From a virus, in IMG/VR virus record IMGVR_UViG_3300043409_001301, positions 1 through 41,551 of that record: a stretch of 41,551 bases of DNA, one strand, 5' to 3'. Shown piece by piece: positions 1-1,053 of the stretch. A model generated the notes under the pieces. That model was not told the DNA's origin, made no database searches, and was given only the letters and a program-made list of their open reading frames with translations. How positions within the stretch are numbered: the stretch's first letter is position 1; every line of letters starts with the position of its first letter. Made by a program: the position numbers and the translations under genes.

Positions 1-175
1 GCGCCGCAGGCGTGCAGCCCAGCAGTTCGTCGGGTGCCATCTTCAGCGCGTCGGCCATGCGGTGCAGCACATCCAGGCGCGGCATCTGGCGGCCTGCTTC
101 AAGGTTCGTGACGCTGGTGCGTTCCAGGCCGCAGGCTTCAGCCAGTGTTGCCTGGGTCATGCGTGCGGCCTTTCG
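1..175. repeat. Left copy of terminal direct repeat (circular overlap)
   Basis: Bases 1-175 match 41377-41551 except at one position: G at 48 versus A at 41424. Such an overlap is expected when a circular or circularly permuted phage genome is assembled, giving a unit of about 41,376 bp. It could instead be a short true terminal repeat. An open reading frame runs through the junction in phase, which favours circular continuity. The mismatch is a missense change in the HTH gene, so population variation is more likely than random error. Confidence 0.9.
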
Positions 176-247
176 CGCGCTTCGGACACGGGCGGCTAAC
201 ATCTCGCTCAAGGCCGACCCATCGCGGCGGGTAGTCTTGTCGTCCAT
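1..247 (-). CDS. XRE-family HTH regulator, 5' part (continues at right edge)
   Basis: The gene starts at ATG 247, with GGAG 7 nt upstream, and runs off the left edge. Across the circular junction it continues at 41376-41201, giving 140 aa in total. Residues 20-76 form a typical XRE/Cro-like helix-turn-helix: M-T-Q-A-T-L-A-E-A, then S-V-T-N-L-E-A-G-R-Q, then a leucine-rich support helix. The product is probably a DNA-binding repressor or activator. The start codon and ribosome binding site lie inside the attC-like site at 194-297. The methyltransferase frame upstream reads into this gene and overlaps it by about 110 nt. The operator is not visible here. Confidence 0.85.
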   Translation of the reverse strand, partial: MDDKTTRRDGSALSEMLAARVRSARKAARMTQATLAEACGLERTSVTNLEAGRQMPRLDVLHRMADALKMAPDELLGCTPAA

Positions 248-1028
248 TGCTGTTCTCCAGTAGCGCCGCGCTGGGCGGCTTAGCTCGAACGTTATGCGTG
301 TTCCTCATGCCACCAGTGAGCATTCGCCAGGCTGTGGCTGCGCACCGGGGCACTTGGCCATTGCCAAGGGCTTTAAGTCTGTCCACCCCAGCGGCCACCC
401 CATCAAGCCTTCGTAGGCCGTAGGGTTCGGGTAGATTGCGCCAGTGACGTTCTGCCCCTTCGACCAAATCCGAAACTGTCGGGCCCGGCTGTCGAACTTG
501 CTGCCGCTGCTGGTGCCCTTGTAGTCCGAGCGCTGCGGCGTAGGCCACCAGCCAGATTCGTTCGCGGCCATGCGGGGCGCCGACATCACCAGCTCCCAGC
601 ACTGTCCATCGGCAGTCATACCCGAGTTCGGCCAAGTCTCCAAGGACTCTTCCGAGTCCTCTAGAAGTGAGCATTGGGCTGTTCTCCACATACGCGAGGC
701 TTGGTCGTACTTCGCCAATGATCCGCGCCATGTGTCCCCACATTCCGCTGCGCTCTCCTTCAATGCCTGCACCTCGGCCGGCTGCACTGATGTCCTGGCA
801 AGGGAAGCCCCCCGAAACCACGTCAACAAGTCCGCGCCAAGGTCGTCCGTCAAAGGTCTGCACGTCATCCCAAATTGGGAAAGGCGCGAGAAGGCCGTCA
901 TTCTGTCGGGCGACAAGAACGCTTGCTGCGTAGGGCTCCCACTCCACGGCGCACACAGTTCGCCAGCCGAGCAAGTGCCCCGCGAGTATTCCGCCACCAG
1001 CGCCTGCGAAAAGAGCCAACTCATTCAT
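138..1028 (-). CDS. DNA (cytosine-5) methyltransferase, read-through C-terminus
   Basis: This 296-aa frame has the C5-methyltransferase motifs in order: FAGAGGG (residues 7-13, AdoMet binding), P-C-Q with catalytic Cys77, E-N-S at 115-117, R-x-R at 155-157, and LGNGQVP at 221-227 (motif X). The recognition region between motifs VIII and X is only about 45 residues, so this is a compact enzyme. It probably methylates phage DNA to evade host restriction. The enzyme proper ends near residue 238. The frame has no stop there: it crosses the attC-like site at 194-297, which encodes N-V-R-A-K, and ends inside the HTH gene. The ATG at 1028 has GGAG only 4 nt upstream; a second ATG at 1024 opens a different long frame. 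Confidence 0.9.
   Translation of the reverse strand: MNELALFAGAGGGILAGHLLGWRTVCAVEWEPYAASVLVARQNDGLLAPFPIWDDVQTFDGRPWRGLVDVVSGGFPCQDISAAGRGAGIEGERSGMWGHMARIIGEVRPSLAYVENSPMLTSRGLGRVLGDLAELGYDCRWTVLGAGDVGAPHGRERIWLVAYAAALGLQGHQQRQQVRQPGPTVSDLVEGAERHWRNLPEPYGLRRLDGVAAGVDRLKALGNGQVPRCAATAWRMLTGGMRNTHNVRAKPPSAALLENSNGRQDYPPRWVGLERDVSRPCPKRAKGRTHDPGNTG
194..297 (+). repeat. attC-like site 1
   Basis: R''-like box GGCTAAC (194-200), L'' GCTCAAGGCCG, then L' CGGCTTAGC and R'-like GTTATGC (291-297); 104 bp. L'' carries extra bases relative to L', as in integron attC sites read on the + strand. The HTH start codon (247) is inside the site. Both outer boxes deviate by one base from RYYYAAC/GTTRRRY. Confidence 0.75.
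305..1024 (-). CDS. Overprinted methyltransferase-associated phage protein
   Basis: A 239-aa frame lies entirely inside the methyltransferase gene on the same strand. It starts at ATG 1024, four bases after the methyltransferase ATG, with GGAG at 8 nt. Its sequence resembles a phage protein family I recall as separate entries: start M-S-W-L-F-S-Q-A-L-V, then F-S-R-L-S-Q-F-G, S-L-A-K-Y-D, W-R-T-A-Q-C-S-L-L, W-P-T-P and L-M-G-W-P-L-G-W-T-D-L-K. Unlike the methyltransferase frame, it stops cleanly at 305, just before the attC core at 291-297. The function is unknown. It may be a true overlapping gene, or a database family created by alternative-frame translation of such methyltransferases. Confidence 0.5.
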   Translation of the reverse strand: MSWLFSQALVAEYSRGTCSAGELCAPWSGSPTQQAFLSPDRMTAFSRLSQFGMTCRPLTDDLGADLLTWFRGASLARTSVQPAEVQALKESAAECGDTWRGSLAKYDQASRMWRTAQCSLLEDSEESLETWPNSGMTADGQCWELVMSAPRMAANESGWWPTPQRSDYKGTSSGSKFDSRARQFRIWSKGQNVTGAIYPNPTAYEGLMGWPLGWTDLKPLAMAKCPGAQPQPGECSLVA

Positions 1029-1053
1029 ACATCTCCACGCTTCGGAACCACAC

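Follow-up and report, generated by a model that had tools for sequence, protein, structure and literature searches.

Both subunits of a heterodimeric cytosine-5 DNA methyltransferase are probably encoded by one DNA segment in overlapping frames of a tailed phage

Cytosine-5 DNA methyltransferases made of two polypeptides have been described before, and a 1995 paper on EcoHK31I reportedly placed the small subunit in another frame inside the large gene. In M.EcoHK31I (YGGCCR), a later account assigns motifs I-VIII and X to the larger subunit, which is described with a predicted target-recognition domain (TRD), and motif IX to the smaller one (PMC3404938). M.AquI is presented in the same text as a split C5 methyltransferase with a catalytic half and a half carrying the TRD and motifs IX-X. 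Another hidden frame is the ShiLan domain, an HNH endonuclease lying out of frame in a mycobacteriophage methylase, which is characterized as a mobile insertion with a disjoint distribution (PMC11855218). In Paenibacillus phage Shelly, gp56 is annotated as "g55 internal gene", without function or relationship.

In the present study, the IMG/VR virus record IMGVR_UViG_3300043409_001301 was analyzed over a stretch of 41,551 nucleotides (the window). It is a tailed-phage genome in which terminase, portal, major head, and RecT genes were found. The original prediction for this DNA was that two recognizable protein families are overprinted in one methyltransferase locus, and this was supported: two frames of the same DNA, here called alpha and beta, matched different families. 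The features of the locus are as follows.

Positions 138 to 1028, minus strand: alpha frame, C5 cytosine methyltransferase, putative catalytic subunit (motifs I-VIII and X), matching PF00145 and phrog_363
Positions 305 to 1024, minus strand: beta frame, phrog_1008 family, proposed target-recognition and motif IX subunit, +1 relative to alpha
Positions 1033 to 1036, minus strand: Shine-Dalgarno-like GGAG, with a spacing of 4 nt to the alpha ATG and 8 nt to the beta ATG
Positions 795 to 812, minus strand: motif IV of alpha, GGFPCQ, with the catalytic cysteine, invariant in 56 of 56 alpha sequences
Positions 678 to 686, minus strand: motif VI of alpha, ENS, invariant in 56 of 56 alpha sequences
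Positions 348 to 377, minus strand: LKALGNGQVP of alpha, which we take to be motif X, from an alignment and a regex survey
Positions 374 to 427, minus strand: motif-IX-like segment of beta (NPTAYEGLMGWPLGWTDL), where the C-terminus of the beta profile matches the position of motif IX elsewhere
Positions 1052 to 1125, no strand: attC-like palindrome flanking the methyltransferase cassette 5', with 35-nt arms that are 97% complementary; attC identity judged by eye
Positions 194 to 297, no strand: attC-like element flanking the cassette 3', immediately behind the beta stop; boundaries set by eye

The alpha frame runs from the ATG at 1028-1026 to a stop ending at 138 (296 amino acids, minus strand), and its predicted identity as a C5 methyltransferase was borne out by matches to PF00145 (1.7e-29) and phrog_363 (8.2e-63). 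The beta frame runs on the same strand from the ATG at 1024-1022 to a stop at 307-305. Its translation was free of internal stops over 239 codons, as had been claimed, and contained the three peptides named in the claim (W-L-F-S-Q-A-L-V, S-L-A-K-Y-D, and L-M-G-W-P-L-G-W-T-D-L-K), while the phage family that it was said to resemble proved to be phrog_1008 (9.5e-20 over profile positions 35-151), of which it is a member. The GGAG at 1036-1033 is a ribosome site common to both frames, and its spacing is better for the second frame (8 nt to the beta ATG vs. 4 nt to the alpha ATG), both of which agree with the original prediction. The 4-nt offset between the starts was found in 121 of 132 distinct homologues. 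The beta ATG was kept in all 121 of these, while the codon at the alpha start was ATG in 77, GTG in 21, TTG in 8, and no usual start codon in 15; therefore, beta initiation itself is conserved. The trend in Shine-Dalgarno spacing among the homologues has to be read with 19 of those examined lacking any match of at least 4 bases.

By description, the window shares with M.EcoHK31I the motif split and a predicted second chain in an overlapping frame. The window alpha has little room for a TRD, whereas one is predicted in the large subunit of M.EcoHK31I, and the window beta, with its start 4 nt past that of alpha, spans almost the whole alpha frame. M.AquI is like the forms of phages phiBT1, Samy, and TiroTheta9 considered below, whereas the window keeps motif X on alpha and its overlap is almost complete. 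Unlike the ShiLan domain, the second frame of the window is written on the sequence of the methylase itself and is shared by relatives of that methylase. Shelly gp56 lies in the same beta frame, in the arrangement called form B below.

The cassette setting also agreed with the claim that the beta stop respects the cassette boundary. Beta ended at 305, directly before the attC-like element at 194-297, while alpha read through this element to 138. In 104 of 132 loci the alpha stop lay 5-23 nt past the beta stop; that stop is absent from the window alpha, and the last about 50 alpha codons, which pass through the attC-like element, are probably not part of the native protein. In three other loci (L028, L030, and L046), the same gene end was followed by different attC-like elements. 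Similar attC-like ends were recognized by eye, from repeats, near 1413 and at 1717-1836, and the repeats suggest a small integron-like gene-cassette array beside the RecT region, at 190-1840 of the window. An HTH-like ORF has its ATG (247) inside the attC-like element at 194-297.

The coding status of beta was examined by counting +1 stops against alphas whose synonymous codons had been shuffled. Alpha relatives came from two IMG/VR scans, one with a beta query and one with an alpha query, and the best 80 loci of each were used. In 169 of 169 loci (the window, 160 IMG/VR loci, and 8 phage loci), beta matched best in the frame that is +1 to alpha, and removal of identical alphas left 132 distinct loci, 74 of which had been picked by beta. 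The span used for counting stops was fixed by alpha alone, beginning at its codon 2 and ending 8 codons short of its stop. The distinct loci had 21 stops in +1 vs. 611 expected, and the second frame, far from being interrupted in most homologues, was fully open in 123 of the 132 (0.7 expected). Among the 50 loci picked by alpha only, 3 stops were counted vs. 236.6 expected, and 48 loci were open vs. 0.18 expected. A +1 stop was present in nine of the 132 loci, including the window, L028, L030, L165, L166, and L168. In the first three, where alpha continues further, this stop is the end of beta itself; the last three are not form A, the form in which beta starts near the alpha start, as in the window. 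None of 500 synonymous shuffles of the window alpha left +1 open over the beta span (mean, 5.1 stops). A first count of the 132 loci, ended at beta's own stop, had given 6 stops vs. 600 expected and 130 open loci vs. 0.9, with no depletion in the +2 control frame (2047 stops vs. 1617). It was partly circular because each locus ended at the beta stop, and it was replaced by the alpha-fixed spans.

Matches to the beta profile alone are no proof of a gene, because shuffled alphas still reached 194 bits, and the evidence used here is limited to tests against alpha-preserving shuffles and non-overprinted control regions. The beta-profile score beat all 100 shuffles in 85 of 105 distinct loci (68/87 among those picked by alpha) and in 17 of 18 distinct annotated phage loci (L162-L181). 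This profile-score test is weaker than the stop test. A beta-profile match was absent in 4 of the 105 distinct loci, namely L223 and L238, which both end at contig ends, L277, and L279, and two (L195 and L257) had their best beta match in the frame of alpha. Both loci were collected with the Shelly alpha, and their beta C-terminus is in frame with alpha, as would result from a small indel joining the halves.

Internal controls were available from the second arrangement of the locus, form B, in which beta starts inside alpha and whose members were collected with the alpha of Shelly as query. In form B (53 loci), alpha columns 1-60 had 167 +1 stops vs. 114 expected and columns 61-200 had 7 vs. 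273, while columns 21-220 of form A (122 loci) had none vs. 566. Within the same form-B genes and pairs, the fraction of fourfold-degenerate alpha sites that differed was 0.680 outside the overlap and 0.416 inside. Purifying selection on the second frame, which the original prediction had left to a comparison of homologues, was seen in the form-B core: beta-frame identity was 0.488 vs. 0.300 in the shuffles and topped all five alpha-preserving shuffles in 98.8% of 600 pairs, whereas in the N-terminal region, which is not overprinted, it was 0.249 vs. 0.228 and did so in 21% of pairs (chance, 16.7%). With more distant loci added, the core figure dropped to 79.9% of pairs vs. 17.7% in the control. 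In the form-A core, alpha identity was 0.755 and beta identity was 0.513 vs. 0.344 shuffled. Ten of the 132 loci (L165, L166, L168, L071, L080, L055, L155, L025, L011, and L110) are partial, indel-bearing, or not form A and were left out of the form-A column tests and profiles; all ten were kept in the 132-locus stop count. In L071, L025, and L011 one frame is much shorter, and their omission favours the dual-coding reading in the column tests, where L165 belonged to a group of its own kind with four phage loci and L166 and L168 were assigned elsewhere. The TiroTheta9-type loci have a short overlap, inside which the profile score beat all 100 shuffles in only 4 of 14; columns 121-180 had 1 +1 stop vs. 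11 expected, and this overlap itself is not clearly above the shuffles in profile score. Stops, fourfold sites, and identity deviate only where beta lies; therefore, beta is under selection as a protein there, and purifying selection was found on both frames only in the overlap.

Bacterial genomes gave further comparisons. A GTDB scan with a mixed alpha alignment yielded a best 80 loci belonging, by record titles, to many phyla. In these loci, picked by alpha, 64 were open in +1 over columns 72-168 (12.1 expected), with 85 +1 stops vs. 239 expected and 443 vs. 468 in the +2 control. Openness is less telling in high-GC actinobacteria, because chance openness there is about 0.2-0.7. The remaining 16 loci comprised four with one +1 stop and twelve with 4-10, the number predicted by the shuffles; these twelve look like ordinary methyltransferases and are thus built-in negative controls. 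If there were no second product, the open frame would mirror the conserved alpha and the base composition, and the mirror effects are indeed large, as the bit scores of the shuffled alphas indicate. Such mirroring has next to no chance of being the explanation, since stops, fourfold-site rates, and beta identity exceed the alpha-preserving shuffles only where beta lies and no effect was seen in the twelve ordinary methyltransferases. By these comparative tests, both frames are coding.

With regard to the alpha product, the match to PF00145 reached 103.8 bits (cutoff, 22), placing it in that family, and stopped at profile position 194 of 324. An AF2 model of alpha residues 1-245 matched M.HhaI with a Z of 20.7 over 193 aligned residues (rmsd 2.5), low-confidence stretches being excluded from the comparison, and corresponds to the M.HhaI large domain plus C-terminal helices. 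The pLDDT was below 50 at residues 168-180, 182-185, and 199-217, and the place expected for the small domain held only a short, low-confidence stretch. A small domain with TRD and motif IX was not found in the alpha chain, and in a regex survey the phage-like IX pattern occurred in the alpha tail of 0 of 128 mapped form-A loci. Judged from sequence and model, alpha looks incomplete, lacking the TRD and motif IX. One could suppose that beta is the functional gene and alpha a by-product or decayed frame, as beta is annotated instead of alpha in L162 and L283, the beta start is better conserved, and the window alpha lacks its usual stop. This is highly improbable given the invariance of the catalytic motifs across the 56 alpha sequences and the match to the C5 methyltransferase fold.

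The beta product gave no significant match to Pfam, NCBIfam, or PDB sequences (best solved structure, E 0.23), and an AF2 model of beta alone was poorly folded (pLDDT 56.8, pTM 0.28). Its relatives were more informative. Mycobacteriophage Philonius has a single chain of 550 residues that matches PF00145 and phrog_363 in its N-terminal part and phrog_1008 from residue 391 to 549. In TiroTheta9 (gp78/gp77) and Samy (gp49/gp50), the N-half gene is followed by one in the +1 frame for the phrog_1008 protein, a C-half with IX-like and X motifs. Shelly gp56 matches phrog_1008 at 8.2e-74. In the phiBT1 record, gp9.1 is a methylase marked "may be inactive", and no gene is annotated in the gap behind it; an unannotated beta-frame ORF (L281, 1439-2368) opens inside gp9.1, fills the gap, and ends with IX-like and X motifs, and therefore gp9.1 need not be inactive. 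PHROGs labels phrog_1008 "DNA methyltransferase"; beta and the Shelly internal gene match this family, as do the C-halves from Philonius, TiroTheta9, and Samy. The label is silent on a second frame or a C-half, and on the reading of beta as a subunit the family would be no whole methyltransferase. The C-terminus of the beta profile matched the in-frame motif-IX position of single-chain methyltransferases and of non-overlapping beta parts. Against non-overlapping C-halves and the in-frame C-termini of single-chain enzymes (5 of 5 tested), the profile scored 12-21 bits (best shuffled score, 2.7), and a mirror effect is impossible there. The assignment of motif IX to the beta end comes from its position and from weak profile scores. 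Pfam gave a single, weak match on the C-halves (Samy gp50, E 0.2) and none for the longer phiBT1 and Samy beta frames.

The motifs were partitioned between the frames in several ways, counted by regex on profile columns, a procedure that still missed visible variants of IX and X. Motif X in alpha with IX in beta was the pattern of 115 of 129 form-A loci and of 49 of 70 additional IMG/VR loci; among bacterial loci having no more than one +1 stop, it was that of 31 of 68. Both motifs were in beta in 13 of 13 TiroTheta9-type contigs, and both were in alpha in 9 of the 68 bacterial loci with at most one stop. The division of the EcoHK31I type, with I-VIII and X on one chain and IX on the other, was thus found, the identity of IX being by profile match. 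Motifs and stops were compared in 178 mapped loci. In 128 loci with IX in beta and none in alpha, there was 1 +1 stop vs. 219.6 expected, and in 13 with classical IX in alpha there were 47 vs. 48.9. Of 22 single-chain relatives whose alpha frame carries a phage-like IX, 21 had no core stops (about 16.7 expected among the 21); the exception, L347, was picked up by the regex but is an ordinary enzyme. The idea that the constraint on beta vanishes when alpha has its own phage-like IX was not supported, as the beta core was still open in these 21. Therefore, supplying motif IX cannot be beta's whole role. Either beta would have a role besides IX or the single-chain forms changed recently, and the subunit model leaves this openness unexplained.

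The loci L279 and L280, from Clostridioides and Streptococcus phages, have a classical motif IX and an open +1 core with a different end, the core having 0 +1 stops where 3.4 and 2.6 were expected. A search made without a mirror control matched the L280 +1 frame to 102 phage records, 79 of them Streptococcus. This type is possibly a second branch of the overprint.

The open frame of the single-chain relatives, together with an overprinted N-terminal half that has no structural or Pfam match, would also suit a beta that is an independent overprinted protein, e.g., an anti-restriction factor or a methyltransferase regulator, merely resembling a small domain. We consider this unlikely, because phrog_1008 is part of the catalytic chain of Philonius, because TiroTheta9, Samy, and phiBT1 have it as their C-half, and because the alpha model has no small domain, and the motifs are partitioned between the frames. 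Less probable still is programmed ribosomal frameshifting from alpha, which would produce a single chain of alpha (I-VIII) and beta (TRD, IX, and X). It accords with the tandem forms, in which alpha ends soon past motif VIII and the beta frame carries on with IX and X. However, the amino-acid constraint on beta lies far upstream of a useful shift site and reaches, in form A, up to beta's own ATG; this ATG is present in 121 of 121 homologues with a Shine-Dalgarno spacing that suits beta; and the window has motif X in the alpha frame again, which would call for two shifts.

Because alpha looks incomplete, the relatives of beta are the missing half, and the motifs are complementary, we favour alpha and beta as subunits of one enzyme, and it is quite probable from sequence and model that a heterodimeric cytosine-5 DNA methyltransferase has its two subunits encoded by a single DNA segment. 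The second family would then probably be the second subunit of the same methyltransferase and no unrelated passenger, a point that goes beyond the original prediction. Alpha (frame 0), having lost the small domain, would bind S-adenosylmethionine and attack the base with the PCQ cysteine. Beta would be translated from its own ATG 4 nt downstream in the +1 frame and end within alpha; it appears to consist of a conserved overprinted N-terminal part, a variable stretch containing WPTP, and a motif-IX-like end, and it may bind alpha and give the complex its target. Since a single Shine-Dalgarno serves both starts, both subunits would come together from one message. The phage may in this way methylate its own DNA against host restriction. 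In a Kampy infection study, the methylase genes gp78 and gp77 are among those highly transcribed at 15 minutes, but neither methylase appears in its mass-spectrometry table.

A broader reading can be put forward more tentatively, as possible though somewhat short of an even chance: that the target-recognition/motif-IX half is written over the catalytic half in the +1 frame across a large phage-type C5 clade, that motifs move between frames and genes (X in alpha with IX in beta, IX and X in beta, or a single chain), and that the overprinted N-half of beta has a further function, e.g., in assembly or specificity control. Under this reading, small indels could fuse, split, and re-nest whole subunits, as the motifs move between frames and genes, and a further function would be expected of the beta N-half because it is kept even in single-chain forms.

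Annotated phages with a +1 beta-profile match have hosts in Salmonella, Klebsiella, Pseudomonas, Acinetobacter, Vibrio, and Stenotrophomonas, and also in Bacteroides, Microcystis, Synechococcus, Paenibacillus, Mycobacterium, and Streptomyces. In two loci (L283, 2939-3622; L162, 2501-3229), beta is annotated as "hypothetical protein" and the methyltransferase frame 4 nt upstream was missed. An E. coli prophage copy (L365, 1501-2262) has both frames broken within a few bases and is a pseudogene in RefSeq.

No description of the overprint in phages, or of its generality in a broad phage-type group, was recognized in the open-access PMC literature searched (including PMC6070908, PMC3404938, PMC3439449, PMC6456624, PMC3091744, PMC4626039, PMC2884959, and PMC5944983), although individual annotations, such as that of Shelly gp56, had registered it. 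What is new here is the full-length overprint and its breadth, while a two-polypeptide enzyme of the M.EcoHK31I kind is already known. The locus would yield two proteins, each about 240 residues long, from nearly identical stretches of DNA, and it has relatives in phages of Proteobacteria, Firmicutes, Actinobacteria, Bacteroidota, and cyanobacteria. To our knowledge, alpha/beta loci would, if this is true, rank with the longest and most widely distributed dual-coding loci of prokaryotes. The finding could explain phage methyltransferases that look truncated or "possibly inactive", such as phiBT1 gp9.1, and partners that were missed or mislabelled. If it is true, these loci would offer a natural set of split methyltransferases for engineering, and the origin and upkeep of overprinted genes would become testable in hundreds of homologues with built-in controls.
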